Shown here: positions 22,429 through 54,287 of the stretch, in pieces
Layout of the letters: each line of letters opens with the position of its first letter
Numbering within the stretch: the first letter of the stretch is position 1
IMG/VR virus record: IMGVR_UViG_3300032268_000832
Location: 186,001-250,000 of that record
Source of the DNA: a virus
Reading direction: 5' to 3' (one strand)
Length of the DNA: 64,000 nucleotides
Translations under genes and position numbers: made by a program
The notes under the pieces: model-generated
Seen by the model: only the letters and a program-made list of their open reading frames with translations
Databases searched by the model: none
Told to the model about the DNA's origin: nothing

Positions 22429-22785
22429 ATGAAAGTATTTTTTATTGCTTTTTTAATGTTTTCTTTATCGATTAAAGCCCAAAAACTAAAGAATGAATTA
22501 TTTACGTTTAATGTTGATTATACAAACAAAGAGTTTATAGTTAGGGTTGGTGATATAGATGAAAATAAATCACAAGTTGAAGTTGAAATTAAGTGTTCTA
22601 AAATAATTCTAGACTATAAAAAGGAAAAACATTTTGTGGAAGTTTTTAATATAAAACAACATGTTAATAATAGCAATGTTTTTTTTGGTGGTAAATTGAT
22701 TGAAGGTGAATATGTTATAACGTTAACATATGTTGAAAATGGTAAAAAAATAAAAAAAATAGAAAAAAAATTAATAAAAACTTGA
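22429..22785 (+). CDS. Secreted hypothetical protein, 118 aa
   Basis: 118 residues from ATG 22429 with a signal peptide (MKVFFIAFLMFSLSIKAQ), then a beta-rich domain. Ends in TGA, one of only two TGA stops in the window; if UGA were read the product would gain five residues and stop at TAG. The stop lies inside the -33 element of the array 1 promoter. Confidence 0.7.
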   Translation: MKVFFIAFLMFSLSIKAQKLKNELFTFNVDYTNKEFIVRVGDIDENKSQVEVEIKCSKIILDYKKEKHFVEVFNIKQHVNNSNVFFGGKLIEGEYVITLTYVENGKKIKKIEKKLIKT

Positions 22786-22812
22786 CTTGTATTAAAATAG
22801 TTAGTATATTTG
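22782..22812 (+). promoter_or_regulatory. Promoter of tRNA array 1
   Basis: TTGAC (22782) and TATATTTG (22805-22812), nearly identical to the promoters at 51913 and 53512. A GATATATTTATAAAC element lies further down the leader at 22842. Confidence 0.85.
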
Positions 22813-22866
22813 CATAACTTTTTAAAACAAGGATATATTTATAAACAAATACAAAAATAAAACAAA

Positions 22867-22968
22867 ATGAGAACAATTAACATACATATGATATCGATTT
22901 CGAATTGGAGACGCAATAGTCACCAAATGTCGGGTATGTCTAATTGCCAAGGTGGGACTGAAGTATAA
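22867..22968 (+). CDS. Leader peptide of tRNA array 1 (attenuator)
   Basis: 33 codons from ATG to TAA, too short for ordinary gene callers. Residues 4-16 read INIHMISISNWRR and 17-26 NSHQMSGMSN: 21 of these 23 are Ile, Asn, His, Met, Ser, Trp or Arg, exactly the amino acids of the tRNAs that follow (Ser, His, Trp, Ile, Met, Asn, Arg). Codons include TCG, AGT, CGC, AGA, CAT, ATT and AAC, matching the anticodons present. GTCGGG within the frame (22929-22934) is complementary to the 5' arm of the terminator. Interpreted as a ribosome-stalling attenuator. Confidence 0.8.
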   Translation: MRTINIHMISISNWRRNSHQMSGMSNCQGGTEV

Positions 22969-22995
22969 TTCAGAAACACATATAACAATACACAA

Positions 22996-23027
22996 CCCGA
23001 CTAGTTAAAAGCTTAGTCGGGTTTTTT
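22996..23027 (+). terminator. Attenuator terminator of tRNA array 1
   Basis: CCCGACTA pairs with TAGTCGGG, followed by six T. Its 5' arm CCCGAC can pair instead with GTCGGG in the leader ORF. Confidence 0.9.
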
Positions 23028-23038
23028 ATTTTAAAACT

Positions 23039-23230
23039 ATGGGTGAATTAGTAAGAAAATTAGGAACTGAAAAAAGTGTCAACTTAGTTAAAGACTTTAA
23101 CCTAATAGTTGACAAGTACAGAAAAATAGCAGATGCCAGTGGATATCACGGAGAGCTAAAATTTCAAAAAGAAGGTGGGTTCACCGTAATATTTGTAGAT
23201 ATTAAAACGGACGATAATTTGGAGGAGTAA
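23039..23230 (+). CDS. Hypothetical protein, 63 aa
   Basis: 63 residues, starts MGELVRKLGTEKSVNLVKDF. First gene after the array 1 attenuator; its last 10 bases lie in the tRNA-Ser gene. No family recognised. Confidence 0.6.
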   Translation: MGELVRKLGTEKSVNLVKDFNLIVDKYRKIADASGYHGELKFQKEGGFTVIFVDIKTDDNLEE

Positions 23231-23308
23231 AGCGTAATGGTTGACCGCTCTAGTCTTGAAAACTAGTCTCGCGAAAGTGGGTTGCAGGTTCGAGTCCTGT
23301 CTCCTCCG
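23221..23308 (+). tRNA. tRNA-Ser (TGA)
   Basis: Acceptor GGAGGAG/CTCCTCC, anticodon arm CTAGT-CTTGAAA-ACTAG, long variable arm, T arm GCAGG/CCTGT, G73 as expected for Ser. Confidence 0.9.
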
Positions 23309-23366
23309 CAAAAATTTACACATGCGGTGAATAGTAAAAATTATCCGCACTTTTACAAAATGTAAT

Positions 23367-23375
23367 ATATTTATT
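23367..23375 (+). promoter_or_regulatory. ATATTTATT element
   Basis: Second-class element 3 bases before the endonuclease VII-like gene. Confidence 0.4.
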
Positions 23376-23378
23376 AGT

Positions 23379-23813
23379 ATGGAAATAAATATAAACGTTA
23401 AAAGGTGTTCCAAATGTCAAGAAGAAAAAAGTATTGATTTATTTGGTGTAAAAAATTATAATAAAGATGGTTTAAATCATTATTGTAAAGAATGTGAAAA
23501 TAATAGGAATAAGGTTAGATATCAAGACCCTATTCAAAAAGAAAAAATAAAGTATAATTCAATTTTAAGAAATTATGGTCTTACTAAAGAAGAATATTTA
23601 TTAAAATTAGATAAACAAGAACATAAATGTTCTATCTGTAGTGATGTTTTAAAAAATGATAAAAAAACACACGTAGACCATTGTCATTTGACTGGTGTTG
23701 TTAGAGATATTTTATGTGATAAATGTAATAAATTATTGGGTAACGTAAAAGAAGATGTTAATTACCTAAAAAATTTAATAAATTACATTGAAAAATATTC
23801 ACCGCAAAAATAA
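23379..23813 (+). CDS. Recombination endonuclease VII-like HNH nuclease
   Basis: 144 residues. N-terminal CxxC pairs (RCSKCQ, YCKECE), then YGLTKEEYLLKLDKQEHKC, the VDHCHLTGVVRDILCDKCN nuclease core and LGNVKED, the endonuclease VII/HNH pattern. Probably a homing-type enzyme set in the tRNA array. Flanked by GCGGTG hairpins on both sides, possibly insertion boundaries. Confidence 0.85.
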   Translation: MEININVKRCSKCQEEKSIDLFGVKNYNKDGLNHYCKECENNRNKVRYQDPIQKEKIKYNSILRNYGLTKEEYLLKLDKQEHKCSICSDVLKNDKKTHVDHCHLTGVVRDILCDKCNKLLGNVKEDVNYLKNLINYIEKYSPQK

Positions 23814-23830
23814 GGCGAATAGAAAAGATA

Positions 23831-23852
23831 ATCACCGCAAAAATGCGGTGAT
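23831..23852 (+). repeat. GCGGTGAT hairpin
   Basis: ATCACCGCA pairs perfectly with TGCGGTGAT; no T run. A related TGCGG...CCGCA pair lies before the nuclease gene near 23324-23350. Confidence 0.5.
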
Positions 23853-23866
23853 TGTAAATTAAACAT

Positions 23867-23939
23867 GGTGGCTATAGTGTAACGGTTAACACGCTAGATT
23901 GTGGTTCTGGAAATGGGAGTTCGATTCTCCTTAGTCACC
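23867..23939 (+). tRNA. tRNA-His (GTG)
   Basis: Encoded G-1 opposite C73, acceptor GTGGCTA/TAGTCAC, anticodon arm CTAGA-TTGTGGT-TCTGG, T arm GGGAG/CTCCT. All are His features. Confidence 0.9.
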
Positions 23940-23946
23940 CTTTTAT

Positions 23947-24018
23947 ACTTCGCTGGTGAAATGGCTATCATCTTGGTCTCCAAAACCAAGGTTTCAGGTT
24001 CGAGTCCTGAGCGTAGTG
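23947..24018 (+). tRNA. tRNA-Trp (CCA)
   Basis: Anticodon arm TTGGT-CTCCAAA-ACCAA, T arm TCAGG/CCTGA, acceptor ACTTCGC/GCGTAGT with one T-T mismatch, G73. The only Trp tRNA in the window; it would be the candidate reader if UGA is translated. Confidence 0.85.
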
Positions 24019-24027
24019 CTAAAACAT

Positions 24028-24100
24028 AGGCGTGTGGTGAAATTGGTTATCACGCAAGACTGATACTTTTGTATTTCGAGTTCGAGTCTCGACATGCCTA
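24028..24100 (+). tRNA. tRNA-Ile (GAT)
   Basis: Acceptor AGGCGTG/CATGCCT, anticodon arm CAAGA-CTGATAC-TTTTG, T arm TCGAG/CTCGA, A73, short variable loop. Confidence 0.88.
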
Positions 24101-24105
24101 CAAAC

Positions 24106-24189
24106 TGTGATGTGGATGAATGGTTTAGTCACCAGCCTGATACGCTGGGTGTTTATAACACAATGTGGGTTCGAGTCCCACCGTCACAA
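24106..24189 (+). tRNA. tRNA-Ile-type (GAT) with long variable arm
   Basis: Acceptor TGTGATG/CGTCACA, anticodon arm CCAGC-CTGATAC-GCTGG, variable arm GTGTT-TAT-AACAC (5-bp stem), T arm GTGGG/CCCAC, A73. A long arm is not expected for Ile. A normal Ile(GAT) tRNA is 5 bases upstream. Confidence 0.8.
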
Positions 24190-24191
24190 CT

Positions 24192-24425
24192 ATGAAAAGA
24201 CAATATAGTGAAAATGAAAAAGGATTGGTAGAAGCCATAGTTGGATTGTTCATTTTGCTTCCTAACCCACAATTGAAGGGTAAAGAACAAGAAATAATGA
24301 AAATTGCTTTTAAAATTCTGGACGAAATGTTAGATGAAGACTTTGAACCAGAAGAAAATGAAGATGAAGACGATGATGATGGATACGAAGATTACATCAA
24401 GTATATTGTTGAAAAACGTAAATAA
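24192..24425 (+). CDS. Hypothetical acidic protein, 77 aa
   Basis: 77 residues from ATG 24192 (MKRQYSENEKG); an upstream start would lie in the tRNA. The C-terminal half is rich in Asp/Glu. Ends one base before the next tRNA. Confidence 0.6.
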   Translation: MKRQYSENEKGLVEAIVGLFILLPNPQLKGKEQEIMKIAFKILDEMLDEDFEPEENEDEDDDDGYEDYIKYIVEKRK

Positions 24426-24499
24426 GGTCCTCTGGCGCAATTGGTTAGCGCAGCGCGCTCATAACGCGACGGTTTCGGGTTCGAGTCCCGAGGGGACCA
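24426..24499 (+). tRNA. tRNA-Met or tRNA-Ile2 (CAT)
   Basis: Acceptor GGTCCTC/GGGGACC, loop CTCATAA, T arm TCGGG/CCCGA, A73. Elongator Met versus lysidine-modified Ile2 cannot be decided by eye; the leader of this array contains both AUG and AUA codons. Confidence 0.85.
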
Positions 24500-24604
24500 C
24501 ACCCTATCAAATGGTGTAACCACGGGTAAAAACAGCAACGCTGGCGAATGGACCAGAGGCGCACCGTAATTGTGGTACTCGGTGTATTGATAAAAATATA
24601 AAAT
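24500..24604 (+). other. Structured noncoding spacer
   Basis: No gene. TATCAA near 24505 pairs with TTGATA near 24588, enclosing CACCG/CGGTG and CAGC/GCTG hairpins. May be a degenerate or unusual tRNA-like RNA. Confidence 0.35.
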
Positions 24605-24690
24605 TCTGGTTTGGCCGAGTGGACGATGGCAGCAGACTGTTAATCTGCTAGGGTACACCCTCAACGTAGGTTCGAATCCTACAGCCAGAG
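24605..24690 (+). tRNA. tRNA-Asn-type (GTT) with long variable arm
   Basis: Acceptor TCTGGTT/AGCCAGA, anticodon arm GCAGA-CTGTTAA-TCTGC, variable arm AGGG-TACA-CCCT, T arm GTAGG/CCTAC, G73. T1-A72 and G73 fit Asn, but the long arm and the D-arm GGCCGAGTGG look like Ser/Tyr tRNA. A normal Asn(GTT) tRNA lies at 25300. Confidence 0.8.
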
Positions 24691-24712
24691 CGAAAATTTT
24701 TTTGTTAATCTA

Positions 24713-24742
24713 TTGACTTTTTGTTCGAATTTATTATATTTA
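24713..24742 (+). promoter_or_regulatory. Host-type promoter for the HNH gene
   Basis: TTGAC (24713) and TATATTTA (24735-24742), 16 bases before the ATG. Confidence 0.6.
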
Positions 24743-24757
24743 TAATAAAAACAAATT

Positions 24758-25312
24758 ATGAAAGAAAAAATATTAGAATTAAGAAAAAAAGGTTTAAAAA
24801 TTGATGAAATTGTTAAAGAATTGGGTTGTGCTAAAAGCACCGTATCATATCACATTAACAATAATGGTTTAGGTGGTAAGGTTATAACTGACAGTTTAAT
24901 TTCTAAAATTAATGAGTATTATTTAACTCATAGTAAAGCTGAAACAGCTAAACATTTCGGGATTGGAGCTTCAACTGTAACTAAATATACTGAAAATAAA
25001 AGAGTCTATTTAAGCGAAGAAGAGAGGAAAGAAAAAGCTGTTAAAGCCGTTGTAAAAAGAAGACAAAAAGTCAAAGAGATGGCAGTTGAATACAAAGGCG
25101 GTTCATGTCAGAGATGTGGTTATAATAAATACATAGGTGCTTTAGAGTTTCACCATATGGACCCAAATGAAAAAGATTTTTTAATAAGCAGAAAAGGTCA
25201 TTGTACATCTTGGGAAAAAATAAAAAAAGAATTAGATAAATGTATTTTAGTTTGTGCTAATTGTCACAGAGAAGTACACGAAGAAGAAAGAAATAACAAG
25301 GGGCTGTCGTAG
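24758..25312 (+). CDS. HNH homing endonuclease with helix-turn-helix
   Basis: 184 residues. Helix-turn-helix segments (IDEIVKELGCAKSTVSYHI; AETAKHFGIGASTVTKY) occupy residues 15-85; the HNH core is C-terminal: SCQRCGY, LEFHHMDPNEKDF, CILVCANCHREVHEE. The TAG stop falls inside the following tRNA-Asn gene, so enzyme and tRNA overlap by 13 bases. Confidence 0.85.
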   Translation: MKEKILELRKKGLKIDEIVKELGCAKSTVSYHINNNGLGGKVITDSLISKINEYYLTHSKAETAKHFGIGASTVTKYTENKRVYLSEEERKEKAVKAVVKRRQKVKEMAVEYKGGSCQRCGYNKYIGALEFHHMDPNEKDFLISRKGHCTSWEKIKKELDKCILVCANCHREVHEEERNNKGLS

Positions 25313-25373
25313 CAGCGGTCTAATACGGAGGACTGTTAATCCTTTTACATGGGTTCGAATCCCATCGGCCCCG
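25300..25373 (+). tRNA. tRNA-Asn (GTT)
   Basis: Acceptor GGGGCTG/CGGCCCC, D stem CGTA/TACG, anticodon loop CTGTTAA, T arm ATGGG/CCCAT, G73. Confidence 0.9.
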
Positions 25374-25387
25374 CAAAATAAAAGAAG

Positions 25388-25540
25388 ATGGAAAAGACAA
25401 GTGAAGCTGATATGCAGCGTCTTTATGATTACTTGGATAAAATGGGTGTATCTTATACGGTAGACCGAAATCCAAGTCCAGAAAAGATTGCTAGAATCAA
25501 AGCACAAATTGAAAAGAACAAAAAAATAAGAATGTGTTAA
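25388..25540 (+). CDS. Hypothetical protein, 50 aa
   Basis: 50 residues from ATG 25388 (MEKTSEADMQRLYDYLDK) to TAA, helical and charged, between two tRNAs. Codon usage looks like the neighbouring genes. No family recognised. Confidence 0.5.
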   Translation: MEKTSEADMQRLYDYLDKMGVSYTVDRNPSPEKIARIKAQIEKNKKIRMC

Positions 25541-25640
25541 TGCTGATAAACTACAACAGCACCAGACGAAAAACTGGCGTGGAGCATGGGACTAGTTAAC
25601 CACCACAATTGTAGGAGAATACCCTACCACATTCACAAAT
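25541..25640 (+). other. Structured noncoding spacer
   Basis: No gene. Contains CCAG/CTGG and GTAGG/CCTAC hairpins, the latter with a 7-base loop like a degenerate T arm. Shares the ACAGCA...GACG/GGCG pattern with the spacer at 24500. Confidence 0.35.
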
Positions 25641-25710
25641 GCCGAGGCTTATAGGAAAAGAGCCATCCCTCATAAAGATGGTCAAGTCGGTTCGACTCCG
25701 ATACTCGGTA
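25641..25710 (+). tRNA. tRNA-Met-type (CAT)
   Basis: Acceptor GCCGAGG/ACTCGGT (one mismatch), D stem GCT/AGC, anticodon arm CATCC-CTCATAA-AGATG with a C-A mismatch, T arm GTCGG/CCGAT, A73. Elongator Met or Ile2. Confidence 0.75.
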
Positions 25711-25718
25711 CCAAAATT

Positions 25719-25791
25719 GGCTCTATCGTTCAACTGGATAGGACCTCGGTCTACGAAATCGAAAATACAGGTTCGAATCCTGTTAGAGTCA
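25719..25791 (+). tRNA. tRNA-Arg (ACG)
   Basis: Acceptor GGCTCTA/TAGAGTC, anticodon arm TCGGT-CTACGAA-ATCGA, T arm ACAGG/CCTGT, A73. Confidence 0.87.
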
Positions 25792-25840
25792 CAACATCAG
25801 TCAAATCTATAATTTATATGTATCATTTGGCTAACAATAT

Positions 25841-25913
25841 GCCTCCATAGCATAAATGGAAATGCAACATCCTTCTAAGATGTCCAATCGGGGTTCGAAT
25901 CCCTGTGGGGGTA
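25841..25913 (+). tRNA. tRNA-Arg (TCT)
   Basis: Acceptor GCCTCCA/TGGGGGT, anticodon arm ACATC-CTTCTAA-GATGT, T arm CGGGG/CCCTG, A73. Confidence 0.87.
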
Positions 25914-26117
25914 CAAATAAAATAGCAATCAAGGTTTGTTTCACCTTCAAGATATTCCTGAAAAGAAACTAGGTGTGTTGATAGGGGTAGCCTCCCAACA
26001 GTGACTGATTAAATTCAAGGTAGATACGGACTGGTACAGTGGTGACTTACACACGGAATTCCACTAATCCCTTTGTAGCCCGTCACGACCCAAGGGCGGG
26101 ATTGTTATTTTATTTAT
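25914..26117 (+). other. Noncoding region before tRNA-Ser
   Basis: About 200 bases without a gene. Contains a GTTTGTTTC...GAAACTAGG fold and, near 26078-26100, a CCCGTC/GGCGGG hairpin followed by a T-rich stretch, which may be a terminator. Confidence 0.4.
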
Positions 26118-26201
26118 GGAGAGTTGCCAGAGTGGTAATGGAGCGGATTGCTAATCCGTGGTCGTTAGTTCGGCCCATGGGTTCGAATCCCATACTCTCC
26201 A
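26118..26201 (+). tRNA. tRNA-Ser (GCT)
   Basis: Acceptor GGAGAGT/ACTCTCC, anticodon arm GCGGA-TTGCTAA-TCCGT, long variable arm, T arm ATGGG/CCCAT. Position 73 is A rather than the usual Ser G, followed by CCA in the DNA. Confidence 0.85.
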
Positions 26202-26225
26202 CCACGTCTTATTCATTATTTCTAG

Positions 26226-26234
26226 ATATTTATT
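26226..26234 (+). promoter_or_regulatory. ATATTTATT element
   Basis: Second-class element 14 bases before the ATG at 26249. Confidence 0.4.
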
Positions 26235-26248
26235 TAAAAATATTGATA

Positions 26249-27043
26249 ATGAAAAAATATATTAAAAATTTGCTTAGAGAAAATATTTTAAAAGAGTATA
26301 TCAATCAAGACATGGTATCTCTTAAGAGATATTTTTCTATGTCAGATGAACAAAAGAAGTCTTATTTACCACATGAATATCCATATGAATTTGATAGGTT
26401 CTTAGATGAAGAAGGTATAGAAACAGATATTGAGGGTGAAACATATGAAATATCAGATATTCTATTTGATAAAAACCCAGAATTATACAATAGATTTGCT
26501 GAATGGTTATTTAGAGAAATTGAACAAAACACACTAAACGTTCCAGACTCTGATTATCCAGCATGGGCCTATTTTGATAACCCAAGACTTGTTAAGAATC
26601 AATGGTTAATTCATTTCACTGATAATGCTGAGAGTATTGCAAGACAAGGTTTTAAATATGGTGTTGATGAAATTGATAAATTGGCGTTAACAACACATTT
26701 GGGAGAGTTCGAAAAAAAATATGGTGGTTATAATTTTGCTTATGATATTGAGAGATATGATAGATATGCACATAGCAATCGTGGTTCTGGTTTTAAATAT
26801 GGTAAAGAAGCTGTTATATTTAGAGCATCTGGTATAGAATTATGGCATTATAGTGATGAGGAACCACAAGTTATTTTTTATGGTAATACAGCTAGAAACA
26901 TAATACCAATAATAAGAGGTGAGAATGCTGATTGGGCGGTTTATAGCACAAAGAGTGGTCGTATCTTATATGAGAACGATGATTTTGACAATGTAGTTGT
27001 ATGGGTTTTAAGAAATTACGTTCAATATAGAAAACAAGTGTAA
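26249..27043 (+). CDS. Predicted packaged protein, possibly ADP-ribosyltransferase-like
   Basis: 264 residues from ATG 26249; a longer upstream frame runs through tRNA and is rejected. N-terminus MKKYIKNLLREN, the recurring tag. Residues ~125-240 contain WLIHFTDNAESIARQGFKYG and later AVIFRASGIELWHYSDEEPQV, which resemble the H-x-T and terminal Glu regions of the ADP-ribosyltransferase/phosphotransferase fold. T4 packages an ADP-ribosyltransferase (Alt), which makes the idea attractive, but the assignment is tentative. Confidence 0.6.
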   Translation: MKKYIKNLLRENILKEYINQDMVSLKRYFSMSDEQKKSYLPHEYPYEFDRFLDEEGIETDIEGETYEISDILFDKNPELYNRFAEWLFREIEQNTLNVPDSDYPAWAYFDNPRLVKNQWLIHFTDNAESIARQGFKYGVDEIDKLALTTHLGEFEKKYGGYNFAYDIERYDRYAHSNRGSGFKYGKEAVIFRASGIELWHYSDEEPQVIFYGNTARNIIPIIRGENADWAVYSTKSGRILYENDDFDNVVVWVLRNYVQYRKQV

Positions 27044-27045
27044 AT

Positions 27046-27723
27046 ATGAAAGATTTTATTAAACAAAAATTATCAGAGAATTTAGTACATGAGGTAATCG
27101 AATCTTATTTAGAAGAGGATTACCCATCCAATTTTGATTTAGAAGAATTTTCAAAATTAAATAGTTTTAACAAAAGAATCCAATACTGTCAAGAAAGACT
27201 TAAAAGAATATCATCTGGCTCATCTAGGATTGTCTATATGGTTGACGATACTAAAGTGCTTAAGATTGCGAGAAATAAAAAGGGTCTTGCACAAAACGAA
27301 ATTGAAATTGATTATTCAAATTACTATGATTTAAAAGACATCACAGCACAAGTATTTGCTTATGACCAAAATAATTTATGGGTTGAAATGGAGTTGGCTA
27401 AAAAAGTAACGCCAGCAATATTTGAAAGAGTTGTTGGTTTTACATTTGCTGATTATTGTGCTGGCCTTAGAAAACATCATGATGAAATAAACCCAAAAAG
27501 AGGTTCATGGTTTAGTTCTGATGTAAGCAAAGAAGTTTATGAAGCTATGTGGGAAGATGAATTTACTTATGAAATGTTAAGTTTTATTGGTGGTTATGAT
27601 ATTCCAGTTGGTGATTTGTGTAAACTTAACACATATGGTCTTGTAAAAAGAAATGGTGAAGACACGATTGTTATGATTGATTACGGATTAAATAATGATG
27701 TTTGGCAAGACTATTATAAATAA
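27046..27723 (+). CDS. Predicted packaged protein kinase-like protein
   Basis: 225 residues. N-terminus MKDFIKQKLSEN, a variant tag with an LSE site. GSSRIVYMVDDTKVLKIARN resembles a Gly-rich loop and the beta-3 Lys of protein kinases, and DTIVMIDYGL resembles the metal-binding DFG region. The classic HRD loop is not obvious. Two bases after the 26249 gene, same operon. Confidence 0.55.
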   Translation: MKDFIKQKLSENLVHEVIESYLEEDYPSNFDLEEFSKLNSFNKRIQYCQERLKRISSGSSRIVYMVDDTKVLKIARNKKGLAQNEIEIDYSNYYDLKDITAQVFAYDQNNLWVEMELAKKVTPAIFERVVGFTFADYCAGLRKHHDEINPKRGSWFSSDVSKEVYEAMWEDEFTYEMLSFIGGYDIPVGDLCKLNTYGLVKRNGEDTIVMIDYGLNNDVWQDYYK

Positions 27724-27749
27724 TTTTTGTATAGTTAAAAAATAAGTAG

Positions 27750-27757
27750 TATATTTG
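27750..27757 (+). promoter_or_regulatory. Host-type -7 element for the kinase-phosphodiesterase gene
   Basis: AGTAGTATATTTGC five bases before the ATG. Confidence 0.6.
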
Positions 27758-27761
27758 CATC

Positions 27762-48835: not shown

Positions 48836-48878
48836 TGAAAAAAAGTTTAAAAAAAATCTTTATTTAAAAAAAAAGTAG

Positions 48879-48886: not shown

Positions 48887-48905
48887 CATAAAATTATTTA
48901 ATGCG

Positions 48906-49167: not shown

Positions 49168-49168
49168 A

Positions 49169-50392
49169 ATGAGCAAACAACTAACACACGAGTTTCTAGT
49201 AGAAAATGGGTTAATACTTTTTGAAACCATAATTGGTTCTCAAGCATATGGTACCCAAACACCTACTAGTGATGTAGACAAAAAATTCGTATACATATTA
49301 CCTATGGATTATATCTTGGGTACTGGATATGTTGAACAAATAAATGTAAATAAAGACTACACAGGTTGGGAACTTAGACGTTTCCTAGAATTAATGGAAA
49401 CAAACAACCCAACGGTTCTAGAACTTTTAAACAGCCCAGGAGACTGTATAATCAGCAAACACCCTTTGTTTGACCTAATCCTTGCACATAAGGAGGATTT
49501 CATAACAAAACTATGTAAAAATAGCTTTGGTGGATACGCTAGACAACAAATTGTTAAAGCTAAAGGTCTTAACAAGAAACAAAACTGGGAAAAAGACAAA
49601 GTAACTAGAAAAGACTTGTTAGATTTCTGTTATGTTATTCAAGGTGATAAATCAATCCCATGGAGAGCGTGGAATGCTAACAAATATGATGAAAAATTTG
49701 TTGGTGCTGTGAATATCCCAAATGCGAGAGATACCTACGCTTTATTTTATGACAGCGTTGCTGAAATGCTTCATTCTGAAAATACTGATGAAGAACTTAG
49801 AGAGACTTATAAAGAAGCACTGAGAAAAGCTGGTAAATCAATGGGTATGGGTTATAAAGGACTTATCAATACTGGTCATGAAGATGAAGATGGTAAGATT
49901 AACTACGGTATCTCAAATCAATTACGTCTTTCTAGCGTACCTAAAGGTGAGAAAGTTATTGCAACAATAGTGTATAACAAAGATGGTTATTCAGAACATT
50001 GTAAAGACTATAAAGAGTATCAAGAATGGCTTGAAAACCGTAACGAAGCTCGTTATGTTGAAACACAAGAACATGGGCAAAGAATTGATGGTAAGAATAT
50101 GATGCACTGTATGCGTCTTATCAGAATGGCAACAGAAATTGGTCAAGGTAAAGGGATTCAAGTAAGAAGAGAAGATAGAGAATATCTATTATCAATTCGT
50201 AGAGGTGAACTAGACTTAGATAAATTAATCGAAGAAGCGGATAATGCAATTAAAAATATGGATGAAGTTTTTGATAATTCCACTCTACCTGACAGAGTCC
50301 CTAAGGGTTTGGTAAATGCTCTTTTAGTTACTATCAGAAGAGAATTTTATGATTTGCCAATATCGGCAACAACACTTGAAAAAAGACTTTAA
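49169..50392 (+). CDS. DNA polymerase beta-superfamily nucleotidyltransferase
   Basis: 407 residues. ETIIGSQAYGTQTPTSDVDKK near residue 20 is the GS...SDxD active-site pattern of stand-alone nucleotidyltransferases (COG3541-like). Long helical C-terminal region. Target unknown; related proteins modify nucleic acids or proteins. Confidence 0.75.
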   Translation: MSKQLTHEFLVENGLILFETIIGSQAYGTQTPTSDVDKKFVYILPMDYILGTGYVEQINVNKDYTGWELRRFLELMETNNPTVLELLNSPGDCIISKHPLFDLILAHKEDFITKLCKNSFGGYARQQIVKAKGLNKKQNWEKDKVTRKDLLDFCYVIQGDKSIPWRAWNANKYDEKFVGAVNIPNARDTYALFYDSVAEMLHSENTDEELRETYKEALRKAGKSMGMGYKGLINTGHEDEDGKINYGISNQLRLSSVPKGEKVIATIVYNKDGYSEHCKDYKEYQEWLENRNEARYVETQEHGQRIDGKNMMHCMRLIRMATEIGQGKGIQVRREDREYLLSIRRGELDLDKLIEEADNAIKNMDEVFDNSTLPDRVPKGLVNALLVTIRREFYDLPISATTLEKRL

Positions 50393-50393
50393 G

Positions 50394-50897
50394 ATGGATA
50401 TATTTGACGCACCTAAAAATTGTATAAGAACCAACAGTGGTTTATATATAAATGTTTTTGAACCAAAATCTGAAATGATTAATATTGAAGACATCGCACA
50501 TGCGTTAGCTTCTTTGCCCAGATTTGGCGGTCATTTAAACAAACACTATTCAGTGGCGCAACATTGTATAAGATGTTGCGAAATGGCTGAAGGGTTTGAA
50601 GACAAAAAAGCAGCTTTGCTCCATGATGCTAGCGAAGCGTATATGTTAGATATACCAACACCAATAAAATCAATGTTACCAGATTATAAAAAATATGAGG
50701 GTAATTTAATGATGTTTATTGCAAATCATTTTGATTTTGAATACCCATTAAACGAAAAAGTTCACACTATAGATAGAGATATGTTAGTATATGAATGGGA
50801 AAATTTAGTGGTAAATGAATCTGAGGAATTTGAATGTTGGGACCATGCAACAGCTAAGTCTAGATTTATAGATGAATTTAATAATTTATTTAAATAA
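50394..50897 (+). CDS. HD-domain phosphohydrolase (YfbR-like)
   Basis: 167 residues from ATG 50394; an earlier start lies within the previous gene. HYSVAQHCIRCCEMA, ALLHDASEAYMLDIPTPIK and IDRDMLVYEWE fit the HD 5'-nucleotidase pattern (H..HD..D). Probably hydrolyses deoxynucleoside monophosphates. Confidence 0.8.
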   Translation: MDIFDAPKNCIRTNSGLYINVFEPKSEMINIEDIAHALASLPRFGGHLNKHYSVAQHCIRCCEMAEGFEDKKAALLHDASEAYMLDIPTPIKSMLPDYKKYEGNLMMFIANHFDFEYPLNEKVHTIDRDMLVYEWENLVVNESEEFECWDHATAKSRFIDEFNNLFK

Positions 50898-51215
50898 ACT
50901 GTTATTTTCTAATAAAAATTGTATATTATCATCGGCTGTTTGACAGTCATCTATGAAGGAGAATATTTGCTCATTGGTAAGTATTCTCCATTCATTTTTA
51001 GCTTCAGTCTTAGTTTGGTGTTTTCTATGAAGCCATTGTTCTACTTTTAAGTAATTTTTACTTTCATATTGCTTTAATAATACAATCTTATTAGGGTTAC
51101 CAGTTTGTAATTCCGATAATCTAATTTTTATATCTCTTTTTGTGACACCTATCTTGTAGGATTCATTTCCATCAATGTCTGTTTGTAGTAATAAATATAC
51201 ATGTCCCATAATCAC
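50886..51215 (-). CDS. T5orf172/MUG113-type GIY-YIG domain protein
   Basis: 109 residues. GHVYLLLQTDIDGNESYKIG, VTKRDIKIRLSELQTGNPNK and EQWLHRKHQ match the compact T5orf172 branch of the GIY-YIG nuclease fold. Minus strand, its end overlaps the HD gene by 12 bases. Confidence 0.8.
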   Translation of the reverse strand: MIMGHVYLLLQTDIDGNESYKIGVTKRDIKIRLSELQTGNPNKIVLLKQYESKNYLKVEQWLHRKHQTKTEAKNEWRILTNEQIFSFIDDCQTADDNIQFLLENNSLFK

Positions 51216-51244
51216 AAATATATTAGAGTTTTTGTATTTTGTAA

Positions 51245-51253
51245 ATATTTATA
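51245..51253 (+). promoter_or_regulatory. ATATTTATA element
   Basis: Second-class element 12 bases before ATG 51266. Confidence 0.45.
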
Positions 51254-51265
51254 AATAAAAAAAAT

Positions 51266-51853
51266 ATGAAAGACTTTATAAAAAATAGACTTAGAGAATC
51301 TTTAGAACATGAAGAAGATTTACAAGAAATAAATTGGAAAGGATTAGCCGCTGGTGCTGCTATGACGTTGGGTACGTTAGGTGCGCAAGGACAAACGACA
51401 GAACCAACTACACAAACACAAACACCAACAACTCAAACAACACAACAAAAACCAATGTTCGGTACACCAGAACAAAGAGCTGCTGCTAAGGCTAAAAGAG
51501 AAGCTCAACGTAAAAAGAATTTTGATATTTCTGTAAATAATGCTTATGGAATGGGATTTGTTGAAGATATTGAAGAAGAAGAATTTAACACTGGTTGTAA
51601 CATAGCCAATAATCAAGAATTAAAATATTTAGATGGTTCATCACCTGAATTCCCTAATTTTGTATATAGAGAAATGGAAGATGGTACCAAAGTTAAGATT
51701 AATATGAAAAAATATCTTAATTATATTAGAAAACAAAATAAACAAGCTGATGTGCCTTTAGATGGTTTACAAGGTCCTAATTTTAAATCAACAAAATGTG
51801 GTGTTTCTAAAGATGCTGCAAAACAAAGCAAAAGCGATTGGAGTAAAAAATAA
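51266..51853 (+). CDS. Predicted packaged protein, 195 aa
   Basis: 195 residues. N-terminus MKDFIKNRLRES, the recurring tag. A hydrophobic WKGLAAGAAMTLGTLGAQ follows, then a Thr/Gln/Pro-rich linker and a charged C-terminal part with Cys pairs. No family recognised. Confidence 0.65.
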   Translation: MKDFIKNRLRESLEHEEDLQEINWKGLAAGAAMTLGTLGAQGQTTEPTTQTQTPTTQTTQQKPMFGTPEQRAAAKAKREAQRKKNFDISVNNAYGMGFVEDIEEEEFNTGCNIANNQELKYLDGSSPEFPNFVYREMEDGTKVKINMKKYLNYIRKQNKQADVPLDGLQGPNFKSTKCGVSKDAAKQSKSDWSKK

Positions 51854-51872
51854 CCATTTTAATGGTTTTTTT
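51852..51872 (+). terminator. Rho-independent terminator
   Basis: AACCATTTTAATGGTTTTTTT overlapping the stop codon. Confidence 0.75.
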
Positions 51873-51912
51873 AAAAAATCATATATTTATTATAAAAAAG
51901 TTGCAAAAAAAC

Positions 51913-51943
51913 TTGACTTGTATTAAAACAGTTCGTATATTTG
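51913..51943 (+). promoter_or_regulatory. Promoter of tRNA array 2
   Basis: TTGAC (51913) and TATATTTG (51936-51943), within a ~40-base stretch almost identical to the array 3 promoter. Confidence 0.85.
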
Positions 51944-51982
51944 CATCGTATTAAATTTTAACGAAAAAAGAAACAAAACAAA

Positions 51983-52063
51983 ATGAGAAATACTTTTAAC
52001 ATATTAGTCCTTTTAAGCTTATGCTTGCTAGTGGTAAACACAGCAGGGCTTTGCGTATGTTAA
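51983..52063 (+). CDS. Leader peptide of tRNA array 2 (attenuator)
   Basis: 26 codons from ATG to TAA. Residues 8-18 are LVLLSLCLLVV and 23-26 are LCVC, so Leu, Val and Cys dominate, the amino acids of every tRNA that follows (Cys, Val, Leu, Leu, Val, Leu). The Leu codons used are TTA, TTG, CTT and CTA, covering the three Leu anticodons present (TAA, TAG, AAG). GGGCTTT at 52046-52052 is fully complementary to AAAGCCC at 52096-52102, which overlaps the terminator's 5' arm. It could also be mistaken for a membrane peptide. Confidence 0.8.
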   Translation: MRNTFNILVLLSLCLLVVNTAGLCVC

Positions 52064-52095
52064 ACTCATCTGAATAAGATAAGTATCTCTCACAA

Positions 52096-52125
52096 AAAGC
52101 CCATCCTAACCAGATGGGTTTTTTT
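52096..52125 (+). terminator. Attenuator terminator of tRNA array 2
   Basis: CCCATC pairs with GATGGG across CTAACCA, followed by seven T. Confidence 0.9.
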
Positions 52126-52138
52126 ATTGAATAATAAT

Positions 52139-52219
52139 GCCGTGGTTCCTGAGTGGTCAAAGGGGGCGGACTGCAAATCCGCTGCGAAAGCTTCGTGGGT
52201 TCGAATCCCTCTCACGGCT
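52139..52219 (+). tRNA. tRNA-Cys-type (GCA) with long variable arm
   Basis: Acceptor GCCGTGG/TCACGGC, anticodon arm GCGGA-CTGCAAA-TCCGC, variable arm CGAA-AGC-TTCG, T arm with one T-T mismatch, discriminator T as in Cys tRNA. The D arm (CCTGAGTGGTCAAAGGGG) and long arm strongly resemble tRNA-Tyr. A normal Cys tRNA lies at 13846. Confidence 0.8.
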
Positions 52220-52240
52220 CAATGATAAACTGAAAAAAAA

Positions 52241-52621
52241 ATGGAAGGTAAAGATTACTTAGTTGGTTCATTTAGAACCAAAAACGGTGCTCAAGTTAAC
52301 GTTTATAGAAATATTAAAAATATGGAAAAGAATGAAATTAAAAAGGACTTGTATAAGTCAAAGAATCTGGCTAAATTTAGCCACTATGTAAACGGAAACC
52401 TGTATTATAAGGTAGACGTGATGGACGGAACTTATCAGTTCCCAATAAAAACAGTACAGAAATCATATGTAATGGATACTAGACAAGTTGAAAAGATTCC
52501 AACACTAGTATTAGCAGAAGATTTAGGAACAACAAGTTTTGACGCTGAAATAAAGGGTTCTGAATTGATTAGATGGATTGAAAAAGCTATCGATAATGAA
52601 GATTTTATAAAAGTAGGGTAA
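52241..52621 (+). CDS. Hypothetical protein, 126 aa
   Basis: 126 residues, beta-rich, starts MEGKDYLVGSFRTKNGAQ, inside tRNA array 2. No family recognised. Confidence 0.65.
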   Translation: MEGKDYLVGSFRTKNGAQVNVYRNIKNMEKNEIKKDLYKSKNLAKFSHYVNGNLYYKVDVMDGTYQFPIKTVQKSYVMDTRQVEKIPTLVLAEDLGTTSFDAEIKGSELIRWIEKAIDNEDFIKVG

Positions 52622-52634
52622 AACCTACTTAAAT

Positions 52635-52720
52635 GGGACTATGGTGTAGTTGGTTAAACATCCCATCCTTACAAGATGGAGACGAGAAGTATAACGCTGG
52701 TTCGAATCCAGCTAGTCCTA
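52635..52720 (+). tRNA. tRNA-Val-type (TAC) with long variable region
   Basis: Acceptor GGGACTA/TAGTCCT, anticodon arm CCATC-CTTACAA-GATGG, a 16-base variable region, T arm GCTGG/CCAGC, A73 followed by CCA in the DNA. A normal Val(TAC) tRNA is at 52916. Confidence 0.78.
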
Positions 52721-52731
52721 CCAAAATAAAT

Positions 52732-52818
52732 GGCCTTGTGGCGAAACTGGCAGTACGCACTAGACTTAAAATCTAGGGTCCCGAAGGGGGCGTGTGGGTT
52801 CGACTCCCACCAAGGCTA
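52732..52818 (+). tRNA. tRNA-Leu (TAA)
   Basis: Acceptor GGCCTTG/CAAGGCT, anticodon arm CTAGA-CTTAAAA-TCTAG, long variable arm, T arm GTGGG/CCCAC, A73. Confidence 0.9.
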
Positions 52819-52826
52819 CACAATAT

Positions 52827-52909
52827 GCGGATATGGTGGAATGGTAGACACACTAGCCTTAGAAGCTAGGGCTCATTTGGGCATGCGAGTTCGAGTCTCG
52901 CTATCCGTA
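52827..52909 (+). tRNA. tRNA-Leu (TAG)
   Basis: Acceptor GCGGATA/TATCCGT, anticodon arm CTAGC-CTTAGAA-GCTAG, long variable arm, T arm GCGAG/CTCGC, A73. Confidence 0.9.
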
Positions 52910-52915
52910 CAAATC

Positions 52916-52990
52916 GCATCTGTAACTCAGTGGTTCAGTAGTGCTTCCTTTACACGGAAGAAGTCGGGGGTTCGAATCCCTCCAGATGCA
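52916..52990 (+). tRNA. tRNA-Val (TAC)
   Basis: Acceptor GCATCTG/CAGATGC, anticodon arm CTTCC-TTTACAC-GGAAG, T arm GGGGG/CCCTC, A73, short variable loop. Confidence 0.9.
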
Positions 52991-52995
52991 CTAAA

Positions 52996-53081
52996 AGATA
53001 GTTTCAGCAAACAAAAACTGGTTAAAAATTCACACTTAAAATGCGAACGAAGCGGTTCAAATCCGCAAAATATAACTATCT
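52996..53081 (+). repeat. TTCAGCAA stem element, copy C, with tRNA-like interior
   Basis: AGATAGT-TTCAGCAAACAAAAACTGG begins it and ACTATCT closes it. Inside are a possible anticodon arm TCACA-CTTAAAA-TGCGA (TAA) and a T arm GCGG-TTCAAAT-CCGC, but the T arm is separated from the closing strand by extra bases. Either a degenerate Leu(TAA) tRNA or part of the element. Confidence 0.5.
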
Positions 53082-53088
53082 TGTTTTT

Positions 53089-53172
53089 GGCCGAGTGGCG
53101 TAATTGGTAGCCGCGCCAGTCTAAGAAGCTGGTTCTCGAAAGGGAGTGTGGGTTCGAGTCCCACCTTGGTCA
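53089..53172 (+). tRNA. tRNA-Leu (AAG)
   Basis: Acceptor GGCCGAG/CTTGGTC, anticodon arm CCAGT-CTAAGAA-GCTGG, long variable arm, T arm GTGGG/CCCAC, A73. Confidence 0.87.
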
Positions 53173-53189
53173 CAAATTGAAATATCAAC

Positions 53190-53198
53190 ATATTTATT
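53190..53198 (+). promoter_or_regulatory. ATATTTATT element
   Basis: Second-class element 3 bases before ATG 53202. Confidence 0.4.
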
Positions 53199-53201
53199 AG
53201 T

Positions 53202-53483
53202 ATGAAAACACTAATAAAACAATTGTTAAGAGAAAACATACTTGAATTACCAGATTACGCTGTTATTGAAATTACAATACCAATAGCATACATGGACCCT
53301 AAGTATTATTATCAAGCTGTACCAATAAATCAGTTGGATTCTGATAGGATATACATTTGGAAAGGTGCTGCTGGTGGTAAATCAATATCAACCAAGAGTG
53401 TTAGAGTATTAAAAACATTCAAATACAACGAAAAAGATGAAATGGACGTTTATCTTAATCAATTGAGAAACAACGAAATATAA
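53202..53483 (+). CDS. Predicted packaged protein, 93 aa
   Basis: 93 residues. N-terminus MKTLIKQLLREN, the recurring tag, then a beta-rich domain. No family recognised. Confidence 0.65.
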   Translation: MKTLIKQLLRENILELPDYAVIEITIPIAYMDPKYYYQAVPINQLDSDRIYIWKGAAGGKSISTKSVRVLKTFKYNEKDEMDVYLNQLRNNEI

Positions 53484-53511
53484 AATATTTCAAAAAAAGT
53501 TGCAAAAAAAC

Positions 53512-53542
53512 TTGACTTGTATTAAAACAGTTCGTATCTTTG
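53512..53542 (+). promoter_or_regulatory. Promoter of tRNA array 3
   Basis: TTGAC (53512) and TATCTTTG (53535-53542). Downstream leader contains CATATTTATAAACAAATACAAAAA like array 1 (shared in part). Confidence 0.85.
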
Positions 53543-53623
53543 CACTATAATTAAAAACAAAGAAAAAAAATGACTTTTTAAAAAAAGTCGCATATTTATA
53601 AACAAATACAAAAAGAAAACACA

Positions 53624-53713
53624 ATGAGAACTTTAACTAACATATTTGATTTCGCATTTTTTGCAGCCGAGGAGGATTACTCTTTCGGAAGGTCAAACAC
53701 TGTCATAAGTTAA
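53624..53713 (+). CDS. Leader peptide of tRNA array 3 (attenuator)
   Basis: 29 codons from ATG to TAA. Residues 8-18 are FDFAFFAAEED: all eleven are Phe, Asp, Ala or Glu, precisely the tRNAs that follow (Phe, Glu, Glu, Asp, Ala). AGGTCA near the end of the frame (53690-53695) is complementary to TGACCT (53744-53749) in the terminator 5' arm and loop. Same design as at 22867 and 51983. Confidence 0.82.
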   Translation: MRTLTNIFDFAFFAAEEDYSFGRSNTVIS

Positions 53714-53739
53714 CGTTTAAATTAACGATATAAATGATA

Positions 53740-53768
53740 AGTCTGACCTAATAAGTCAGACTTTTTTT
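53740..53768 (+). terminator. Attenuator terminator of tRNA array 3
   Basis: AGTCTGAC pairs with GTCAGACT across CTAATAA, then seven T. Confidence 0.92.
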
Positions 53769-53783
53769 ATGCAATAAATAATT

Positions 53784-53856
53784 GGTTCTGTAGCTCAGTT
53801 GGTAGAGCACTAGATTGAAGCTCTAGGTGTCGTGGGTTCGAGTCCCACTGGAACCA
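53784..53856 (+). tRNA. tRNA-Phe (GAA)
   Basis: Acceptor GGTTCTG/TGGAACC, anticodon arm CTAGA-TTGAAGC-TCTAG, T arm GTGGG/CCCAC, A73. Confidence 0.9.
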
Positions 53857-53865
53857 CAAAAAAAT

Positions 53866-53940
53866 GGCCCCGTCTTCTAAACGGAATAGGAAGCCACCCT
53901 TTCAAGGTGTGTAATGCGAGTTCGAGTCTCGTCAGGGCTA
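53866..53940 (+). tRNA. tRNA-Glu (TTC), copy 1
   Basis: Acceptor GGCCCCG/CAGGGCT with one C-A mismatch, loop CTTTCAA, T arm GCGAG/CTCGT, A73. Confidence 0.85.
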
Positions 53941-53977
53941 CAATCTGGTTAAGATTCCAGTAATCAAAAATCTAAAT

Positions 53978-54050
53978 GGTCTATTCGTCTAGTCGGTCAG
54001 GACGTGCCCCTTTCACGGGTAAAACACGGGTTCGAATCCCGTATAGACTA
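53978..54050 (+). tRNA. tRNA-Glu (TTC), copy 2
   Basis: Acceptor GGTCTAT/ATAGACT, loop CTTTCAC, T arm ACGGG/CCCGT, A73. Different body from copy 1. TCTGGTAA motifs lie in the spacers around this and the next two tRNAs. Confidence 0.87.
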
Positions 54051-54059
54051 CAATAAAAA

Positions 54060-54131
54060 GGTCCTATCGTTCATCGGCTAGGATGCCTCCCTGTCACGGA
54101 GGTGAGGAGGGTTCGATTCCCTCTAGGACCG
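54060..54131 (+). tRNA. tRNA-Asp (GTC)
   Basis: Acceptor GGTCCTA/TAGGACC, anticodon arm CCTCC-CTGTCAC-GGAGG, T arm GAGGG/CCCTC, G73. Confidence 0.92.
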
Positions 54132-54215
54132 CTGGTAACATCTGGTAATTTTAATACCAGTAAAAACCATTAAAAACAGGGATTATTAGTTTTATCTGGT
54201 AATGTCTGGTAATTT

Positions 54216-54287
54216 GGGGTCATAGCTCAACGGCTGAGCGCTTCCCTTGCACGGAAGAGGATGTGGGTTCGAATCCCATTGGCTCCA
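54216..54287 (+). tRNA. tRNA-Ala (TGC)
   Basis: Acceptor GGGGTCA/TGGCTCC with G3-U70, the Ala identity pair; anticodon arm CTTCC-CTTGCAC-GGAAG; A73. Confidence 0.92.

Follow-up and report, generated by a model that had tools for sequence, protein, structure and literature searches.

Ribosome-mediated transcription attenuation is known for the amino acid biosynthetic operons his, leu, thr, phe, and ilv, and T-box riboswitches link the charging of tRNAs to the read-through of a terminator. In phages, tRNAs have been treated as replacements for those cleaved by host defences (eLife 2023, PMC10264068) and in relation to the evasion of defences (Nat Commun 2024, PMC11555353). The current study deals with a giant virus of bacteria whose tRNA genes appear to be arranged in four groups, each apparently governed by its own short leader gene. 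Our main reading of sequence and models is that each of these tRNA operons is probably under ribosome-mediated transcription attenuation (probability of about 0.88).

Layout of the tRNA operons

The window, i.e., the whole 64,000-nt stretch of DNA that was analyzed, is part of a 306-kb phage record and contains three tRNA operons (A, B, and C; Table 1). The first-pass annotation had described a shared layout of promoter, short ORF starting with ATG-AGA, terminator, and tRNAs; this holds for the three arrays that it saw, but the number of operons is four, and the ATG-AGA start is not universal among relatives. The fourth operon (D), located about 1 kb beyond the window end and hence outside its view, conforms to the same pattern. 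The promoters had been called near-identical; a 36-nt pattern recovered them at positions 22779, 51910, and 53509, with 0 occurrences in 100 shuffles; that of operon A presumably represents a Bacteroidota-type consensus. The four arrays combined serve all 20 amino acids, and no amino acid is represented in more than one array. Judging by its anticodon loop, the tRNA of array C that ARAGORN called SeC(tca) is interpreted as Glu(TTC). An architecture-only scan of the whole 306-kb genome returned six candidates, and the four with a strong duplex are the four tRNA operons. Besides the tRNAs, the regions downstream of the leaders contain two endonuclease genes and several ORFs, the five tested of which gave no informative match.

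Table 1. Positions of the operon elements in the window.
Feature	Position	Strand	Basis
Promoter of operon A (predicted), TTG-N19-GTANNTTTG	22782..22812	+	36-nt pattern
Leader ORF A, MRTINIHMISISNWRRNSHQMSGMSNCQGGTEV	22867..22968	+	
Antiterminator arm (segment 2) of leader A; partner, terminator 5' arm	22928..22940	+	Predicted pairing
Intrinsic terminator A (predicted; segments 3 and 4 plus T-run)	22994..23027	+	
tRNA array A: Ser, His, Trp, Ile, Ile, Met, Asn, Asn, Arg, Arg, Ser	23221..26204	+	Rfam tRNA matches
Promoter of operon B (predicted)	51913..51943	+	36-nt pattern
Leader ORF B, MRNTFNILVLLSLCLLVVNTAGLCVC	51983..52063	+	
Antiterminator arm of leader B	52045..52057	+	Predicted pairing
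Intrinsic terminator B (predicted)	52094..52126	+	
tRNA array B: Cys, Val, Leu, Leu, Val, Leu	52139..53173	+	Rfam tRNA matches
Promoter of operon C (predicted)	53512..53542	+	36-nt pattern
Leader ORF C, MRTLTNIFDFAFFAAEEDYSFGRSNTVIS	53624..53713	+	
Antiterminator arm of leader C	53689..53706	+	Predicted pairing
Intrinsic terminator C (predicted)	53739..53768	+	
tRNA array C: Phe, SeC(tca)-called tRNA, Glu, Asp, Ala	53784..54288	+	Rfam tRNA matches

Leader composition and array content in the phage and its relatives

As in an attenuator, the leader ORFs are rich in codons for the product of the operon, here the tRNAs for the respective amino acids. All amino acids of the own array are present in each leader (A, 7/7; B, 3/3; C, 4/4; D, 6/6), and the true assignment of leaders to arrays ranks first of 24. 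Among 1063 mechanically defined short ORFs of 20 to 40 amino acids in the genome, 1, 2, 2, and 1 matched in both fraction and coverage, the leader itself counted each time. The proposal that each ORF is built from the amino acids of its own array and not of the others applies to the control codons (about 7 to 18), but neither to the N terminus, which is approximately RTxTNI in A to C, nor to the C-terminal part with the RNA arm.

In the leaders of relatives, 711 of 776 residues between codon 7 and the switch (about codon 18) belong to the own set, compared with 292 of 813 after the switch; the own set denotes the amino acids of the same class in the window phage or, for G008 and G011, their called sets. 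For these and the following counts, identical peptides were merged (67 left) and the class C leader of L191 (maximum P under 0.4) was dropped; set comparisons disregarded tRNAs labelled ???, SeC, or Pyl by ARAGORN. Except in G000, G001, G003, G005, G008, G011, and G015 to G017, most leaders of classes A, C, and D had been retrieved with DNA patterns that lie within the control region, and this inflates the uniformity; when strict class sets were used and residues covered by these patterns were left aside, 406 of 459 match (A, 144/144; B, 104/134; C, 96/118; D, 62/63). Leader 1 of G011 was included by hand.

Amino acid constraint is higher in the control codons than downstream of them. In protein-guided alignments, pN/pS values of.10/.41 (codons 11 to 18) versus.48/.54 (codons 19 to 26) were obtained for leader A,.11/.39 (codons 13 to 18) versus.45/.45 in the following segment for leader C, and.26/.56 (codons 7 to 16) versus.38/.60 for leader B; the values for A and C refer to codons outside the collecting patterns, without a motif filter. 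For leader D they were.16/.47 (codons 7 to 18) versus.51/.40 with 14 sequences, part of the codons lying inside the class D pattern, whereas no constraint was seen with a set of only 6 sequences (.17/.16). The serines of class A leaders switch between TCG and AGY.

Related phages have kept the correlation between ORFs and tRNA content, whose loss the first-pass annotation had named as a counterargument, and re-partitioned operons carry re-partitioned leaders. An architecture-only scan of partial sequence of 11 leader-bearing records placed 23 of 24 candidates in front of an array of their own class; G045 gave no candidate despite having leaders. In G008, no leader was found before the Phe/Asp/Ala array, the upstream leader unites the amino acids of both arrays, and a Glu tRNA in array D is accompanied by E in that leader; a scan for such combined leaders found G008 alone. 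The distant lineage of G011 and G045 has a different, two-operon partition that the leaders follow, e.g., the two leaders of G045 contain 8/8 and 13/13 of the amino acids of their arrays. Single inserted tRNAs, however, often have no counterpart in the leader. Of 69 leader rows, 11 have an array with an extra tRNA whose amino acid does not occur among the first 20 residues: G003 C (His, Gln), L165 (Tyr), L174, L178, and L207 (His), L176 (Tyr), L182 B (Phe) and C (Cys), L183 and L204 (Pro), and L190 (Met); the L186 row of that table is an artefact of a C leader missed by the finder. The Ala tRNA in array A of G043 is likewise unmirrored, and in L286 the Phe, Lys, and Arg(tct) tRNAs were not called while leader 2 is unchanged. 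Matching residues of G011 leader 2 are not restricted to the permissive part (5/6 before the switch, 12/14 after), and in G045 leader 2 the modelled drop at codon 12 lies ahead of most matching codons.

A near-match DNA search of phages returned no named relative, and a search with leader A returned no match. Among the best-listed matches, DnaB showed 24 to 28% identity, and for a tail protein there were 4 records with a match over 19%. With the region of array C, 356 records were retrieved; the 10 listed cover 12 to 14% of it, which corresponds to the size of a tRNA. A search for the G011 clade yielded tRNAs in 2 of 18 records, one of which (G005) lies outside that clade. Four matches of the class C pattern in bacterial genome contigs, none with tRNAs, were judged to be due to chance.

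RNA arms, simulated ribosome stalling, and rival explanations

An intrinsic terminator (predicted hairpin plus T-run) is located between each leader ORF and the first structural gene, and the predicted antiterminator shares the 5' arm of the terminator, so that both are mutually exclusive. The complementarity between a segment near the ORF end and the 5' side of the terminator, as reported at first pass, was borne out by duplexes, albeit only moderately above shuffled leaders: the arm duplexes had a mean of -14.1 kcal/mol with the own terminator versus -9.8 kcal/mol with terminators of other classes, and a median of 8.5 in 200 shuffled leader regions reached the own duplex. In the class A alignment, 129 of 176 cells pair in register versus 43 to 107 in slid versions. 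Double changes were found in 5 of 8 pairs, a count that is only fair because the arms are misaligned and weak as covariation alone because slid versions also give 3 to 5 of 8; the case for pairing is based on the per-leader duplexes. A candidate 1:2 protector was at or under 5 of 100 shuffles in 26 of 70 leaders, which represents mixed support.

In the folding simulation, stalling on the control codons frees the arm and further movement blocks it, which is consistent with the trp/his-type logic initially suggested. With the ribosome on early codons, 69 of 70 leaders reached a plateau of the 2:3 antiterminator, the failing one being the class C leader of L191, and in 65 of the 69 the 2:3 pairing dropped to less than one-fifth of its plateau value no more than six codons from the switch. 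The same code applied to Escherichia coli trpL as a positive control gave P(2:3)=0.69 with the ribosome at Trp11 and a value of 0 with the ribosome at the stop codon. Without a ribosome, nascent 2:3 pairing amounted to.72 in A,.76 in C, and.56 in D, so an untranslated leader might open as well, and to.01 in B, the only one of the four closing in this model, and 0 in trpL. For almost every position of the ribosome, equilibrium folds of full-length leaders favored the terminator, with P(3:4) of.49 to.99, hence the control must be kinetic, as for trpL. Near the stop codon, arm 2 becomes free again in 18 leaders of class A, 11 of class D, and 1 of class C (30 of the 69); the 1:2 protector could close it there.

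From these features, we infer that the leaders are translated, that transcription can terminate behind them, and that the operons are inducible. RNA polymerase would initiate at the promoter and produce a leader RNA with a short ORF full of codons for the amino acids of the downstream tRNAs. A ribosome that reads quickly would cover arm 2 (near codons 19 to 26), the 3:4 terminator would form, and no tRNAs would be made. Scarcity of a charged tRNA of the group, be it due to low tRNA, cleaved tRNA, or a missing amino acid, would stall the ribosome before about codon 18 and leave arm 2 free for 2:3 pairing with the terminator 5' arm, resulting in read-through into the tRNA genes. Between them, the four leaders would survey the aminoacyl-tRNA pools for all 20 amino acids, divided into four groups, with a group-wise negative feedback on tRNA supply as the outcome.

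The unmirrored gains and losses of single tRNAs, together with the simulated antitermination, which is set by ribosome position irrespective of the codon read, and the opening of A, C, and D without a ribosome would also suit leaders that act as general translation sensors, whose operon opens upon slow or missing translation and whose array-like composition has another cause. This is unlikely, because the leaders differ among themselves as the arrays do, are re-partitioned in re-partitioned lineages, and are more conserved at the amino acid level in the control codons than in later ones. That conservation would also suit functional small peptides, with a terminator that only fixes the tRNA level, but the peptides are of low complexity, their residue order shifts in classes B and D with the composition kept, and their C-terminal third changes freely along with the RNA arm; such peptides, which would leave the complementarity and the tRNA match unexplained, are very improbable. 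Just as little can be said for a T-box-like riboswitch sensing uncharged tRNA directly via specifier pairing and without translation: its output (terminator/antiterminator) and input (tRNA charging) would be similar, but only tRNAs and neither a T-box nor another Rfam leader were found at the gathering threshold between positions 22300 and 54500 of the window, and a single leader has an open frame, conserved at the amino acid level, in which as many as 13 different amino acids are encoded.

Proposed attenuation of tRNA genes compared with described systems

The first-pass annotation knew of no tRNA operon controlled in this way, and none was found in the open-access literature searched; if true, attenuation here would to our knowledge be the first case of a tRNA operon under a leader peptide. 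It offers a directly testable answer to the questions of what near-complete tRNA sets are for in phages and what regulates them, namely a feedback via ribosome waiting time for each group. Each phage leader would be a readable record of co-regulated tRNAs and a natural sensor for several amino acids or tRNAs simultaneously. With even odds, taken jointly, the leaders might form a sense-and-replace system that monitors the 20 aminoacyl-tRNA pools during infection and induces replacement tRNAs for a group depleted by the host or its defences; lineages differ in grouping the genetic code into four groups or two, with leaders rewritten accordingly. The purpose is perhaps to counter tRNA-cleaving defences, which would then be predicted to induce specific phage operons.

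The phage-borne tRNA sets and their plausible benefit are shared with the systems of PMC10264068 and PMC11555353, but according to their titles and abstracts, these papers treat defence evasion and not tRNA regulation, and the terms "operon", "promoter", and "attenuat" are absent from the main text of the former. Compared with T-box riboswitches, the phage leaders lack a T-box match, and sensing would be performed by the ribosome via codons. With attenuators such as E. coli trpL, the phage leaders share a short ORF whose control codons correspond to the supply of the operon, an arm complementary to the 5' arm of the terminator, and antitermination favored by a stall before that arm; the in silico behavior is similar to that of trpL. 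In contrast to trpL, which is closed without a ribosome in the model, three of the four phage leaders are not closed by default. They also differ from biosynthetic attenuators in their location in phage genomes, in operons that yield tRNAs instead of enzymes of amino acid synthesis, in an arm 2 inside the ORF at about codons 19 to 26, in codons for 3 to 13 array amino acids per leader, and in a leader set that spans, in the window phage, all 20 amino acids.

Four tRNA operons and their leaders

Each of the three tRNA arrays in the window (bases 186001 to 250000 of its virus record) is preceded by a Bacteroidota-type promoter, a short ORF (the leader), and an intrinsic terminator, all of them predicted, as are the start codons. 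The promoter pattern, TTG-N19-GTANNTTTG, is that of the Bacteroidota-type consensus. The common layout described in the first-pass annotation was recovered at these arrays and at a fourth, operon D (leader MKTQTTYQTQYQPKGGKPFRSTGCVMFSDLTTI), 970 bases beyond the window end in the virus record of 306,463 bases. Arrays A to D jointly cover all 20 amino acids with no overlap. The remaining tRNA calls of the genome are Met, Met, anticodon CTA, Cys, Phe, and two without an assigned type; a whole-genome architecture-only scan (promoter, ORF of 14 to 45 codons, terminator; tRNA not required) found no leaders there. Of 124 promoter-like sites, six remained as candidates. Four are the tRNA leaders, whose duplexes with the terminator range from -12.3 to -15.6 kcal/mol; the other two have -4.5 and -6.3 kcal/mol.

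Positions and tRNA content of features in the window phage and relatives
Feature	Position	tRNA amino acids
Array A		Ser, His, Trp, Ile, Met, Asn, Arg (set)
Array B		Cys, Val, Leu (set)
Array C		Phe, Glu, Asp, Ala (set)
Operon D, start	genome 250970	
Array D	past window end	Pro, Lys, Lys, Pro, Gly, Gln, Tyr, Thr, Gly (set: Pro, Lys, Gly, Gln, Tyr, Thr)
63-aa ORF, directly 3' of terminator A	window 23039-23230	
Inter-tRNA endonuclease-like genes, array A	window 23379-23813, 24758-25312	
tRNA-like sequence	window about 25636-25712	possible CAT anticodon
tRNA, anticodon CTA (amber)	window 13106-13179	labelled Pyl by ARAGORN
Further tRNAs	window 9587, 10385, 13846	
ORF with TAG stop	genome 92254-94119	
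Tandem class A leaders, record L142	minus strand, 2842 and 4385	His tRNA in between
G011 array 1		Pro, Asn, Asp, Gly, Gly, Thr, Ala, Leu, Arg, Leu
G011 array 2		Glu, Val, Phe, Lys, Cys, Ile, Trp, Tyr, Met, Gln, Arg, His, Ser

Of the genes between the tRNAs of array A, matches are to endonuclease VII (PF02945) and to HTH plus HNH endonuclease families; these are possibly mobile endonucleases interrupting the array. The tRNA-like sequence, uncalled by ARAGORN and Rfam, may be an Ile or Met tRNA of this array. The 63-aa ORF matches nothing in Pfam or PHROGs at E 0.01, and a similar sequence occupies the equivalent site in three other records (G003, G005, G035). The CTA tRNA, for which no leader was found, is often close to Met and Cys tRNAs and recurs in G001, G003, G004, G005, G008, G017, G034, G035, G037, G040, and G043. 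Among 166 mechanical ORFs at least 200 aa long, 9 end in TAG; beyond the tabulated one, 471 codons are open, with an ATG 11 codons on, which may simply be the next gene.

Leader composition in the window phage and its relatives

That the ORFs are made from the amino acids of their own arrays was borne out: leaders A to D each contain every amino acid of their array, and the true pairing is the best of 24 assignments. Among 1,063 mechanical ORFs of 20 to 40 aa from the same genome, 1, 2, 2, and 1 equaled leaders A, B, C, and D in fraction and coverage jointly, the leaders themselves counted.

Relatives were gathered by promoter pattern, DnaB, and leader patterns, and a finder demanding promoter, ORF, terminator, and tRNA within 1.5 kb located leaders in about 51 records (hand count, window phage included, near-copies kept). 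These yielded 69 distinct leader ORFs, or 70 with leader 1 of record G011, which was included by hand and whose promoter deviates from the consensus. Of the 17 initially examined records, 11 have tRNAs of any kind; the four-way partition of the window phage recurs in G001, G003, and G005. A second architecture-only scan, of 11 further records of partial sequence selected for holding a leader, gave 24 candidates, 23 of them upstream of an array of their own class (partly overlapping the 70 leaders) and one, with a weak duplex (-9.2), not so placed; leaders G035 A, G036 B, and G045 1 and 2, seen by eye, were missed. Residue order varies between relatives with composition kept, e.g., in the cores of class B (VILVLLLCLLVV, IVLVLCLLVA, ILVLNLCLLLVVV) and class D (TTYQTQYQPKGGKP, TTYQPKQYTQGGKP, TTYTGKQYPQGKQG). 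In G000, G003, G005, G008, and G038, leader promoters have a mean identity of 0.84 within one phage (27 pairs) versus 0.69 between phages (144 pairs), as if homogenized or read by a shared factor. Two tandem leaders precede one array in L142.

The correlation of ORF and tRNA content is kept in related phages, including those with re-partitioned arrays. In G008 (362 kb), no leader was found before the Phe/Asp/Ala array; the leader of the preceding Cys/Val/Leu array, MRNNNNILLDSLCLAADVDFSIGMVGVCSVS, holds D, A, and F in addition to L, C, and V. E is absent from it, and neither array has a called Glu tRNA, although one tRNA there is untyped and one T-arm-like stretch uncalled. Array D of G008 includes a Glu(TTC) tRNA, and its leader (MKTTYTYQPETKQPKGG...) has the only E codon among the class D codons 7 to 18 compared. 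G011 (317 kb, DnaB 46% identical) divides its tRNAs differently, into two arrays whose leaders, MKQLFVNTNLVFRPTTPNGDGGNLCLDSDTDVG and MRTIVRNKVYSKQQEICWFKTRAVVS, have 7 of 8 and 11 of 13 array amino acids; those of its relative G045, MKQLFDLTNLLRPTTPNTGDAGRVCLGSEASGW and MRTIVRHMVYSKQQEICWFKTRAVVS, contain 8 of 8 and 13 of 13. Short ORFs matching these four on fraction and coverage numbered 0, 5, 0, and 0 of 1,063, and 5 of 1,063 matched the G008 B leader.

Not all gains and losses are mirrored. In 19 of 69 leader rows, the array serves an amino acid that the class set does not include: the leader follows it in two (G008 B and D), the residue is present yet common in the class or doubtful in five (G016, L143, L148, L173, L185), at least one extra amino acid is missing from the leader in 11, and the L186 row is an artifact. 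The leader of G008 array A includes S and M, yet neither Ser nor Met tRNAs were called in that array; in L286, where Phe, Lys, and Arg(tct) tRNAs are likewise uncalled, leader 2 is unchanged.

Pairing, simulated stalling, and control codons

An ORF segment complementary to the 5' side of the terminator (arm 2), as originally proposed, was found in all 70 leaders, only moderately above shuffled leaders: of 200 shuffles, a median of 8.5 equal the own duplex. The best duplexes (-9.0 to -19.9 kcal/mol) mostly start at about codons 18 to 24 and average -14.1 with the own terminator versus -9.8 with terminators of other classes. The own duplex is the strongest of all in 14 of 70 leaders and ranks in the best 5% in 31. 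Between leaders 1 of G011 and G045, arm and terminator co-change as read from the sequences (GATTCAG/CTGAATC to GGTTCAG/CTGAACC). Segments near the N-terminus can pair adjacent to arm 2 (in leader B, TTAACATA with TATGTTAA); such pairing might close the arm, with mixed statistics.

When nascent RNA ending at the terminator loop was folded with a ribosome, modeled as a 30-base footprint, placed on each codon in turn, the antiterminator (2:3) probability of the window-phage leaders was 0.66 to 0.84 over early positions (codons 2 to 17 in A, with 0.53 at 18; 2 to 15 in B; 2 to 19 in C; 2 to 17 in D) and dropped as the ribosome advanced. The plateau appears in 69 of 70 leaders, all but L191 C, and has dips in L184 C and in leader 2 of G011. 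In 65 of these 69, the probability declines to less than a fifth of the plateau within six codons of the switch. Identical code gave 0.32, 0.69, and 0.66 at Trp10, Trp11, and Arg12 of Escherichia coli trpL and at most 0.01 from codon 13. Wherever the ribosome is placed, with few exceptions, equilibrium folds of complete leaders favor the terminator, and those of trpL do likewise; therefore, the choice between the two structures must be made kinetically. As the ribosome nears the stop, arm 2 becomes free once more in 30 of 69 leaders, most of them of classes A and D.

The claim that the ORFs use their own array's amino acids exclusively largely stood from codon 7 to the drop (711 of 776 residues) and failed at codons 2 to 6 (165 of 330) and past the drop (292 of 813). 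Before versus after the drop, own-set residues number 244/244 versus 120/292 in class A, 110/134 versus 52/121 in B, 171/208 versus 15/159 in C, and 167/168 versus 85/216 in D; a strict count outside the collecting patterns gives 406/459. The G011 lineage is the exception (leader 2, 5/6 before and 12/14 after; leader 1, 14/16 and 8/11); in G045 leader 2, the model places the drop at codon 12. In all four classes, amino acid conservation is stronger in the control codons than later, with the smallest difference in B, and serine codons switch between TCG and AGY, which argues that the amino acid, not the RNA, is kept.

Interpretation and comparison with known attenuators

By anatomy and in-silico behavior, the leaders are trp/his-type attenuators, and we consider it highly probable (roughly 0.88) that the tRNA operons are under ribosome-mediated transcription attenuation by their leader ORFs. 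Two results count slightly against this reading and in favor of the leaders being general translation sensors: the G011-type exception, and the formation of 2:3 in A, C, and D even with no ribosome in the model, where only B is closed by default, like trpL. The general sensor nevertheless appears improbable. Under attenuation, the leaders would perhaps serve to counter host tRNA cleavage; such cleavage as a defense, and phage tRNAs as a countermeasure to it, are documented (PMC10264068).

An Rfam scan of window 22300-54500 returned only tRNA matches at threshold, and T-box identity was rejected. No description of leader-peptide control of tRNA operons was found in open-access PMC text. Control regions consisting almost wholly of control codons fit attenuation theory, in which, according to PMC1183508, a larger control-codon fraction gives higher sensitivity. 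Amino-acid biosynthesis attenuator families differ in the genes regulated, which here are tRNAs, and the leaders are therefore not members of them.
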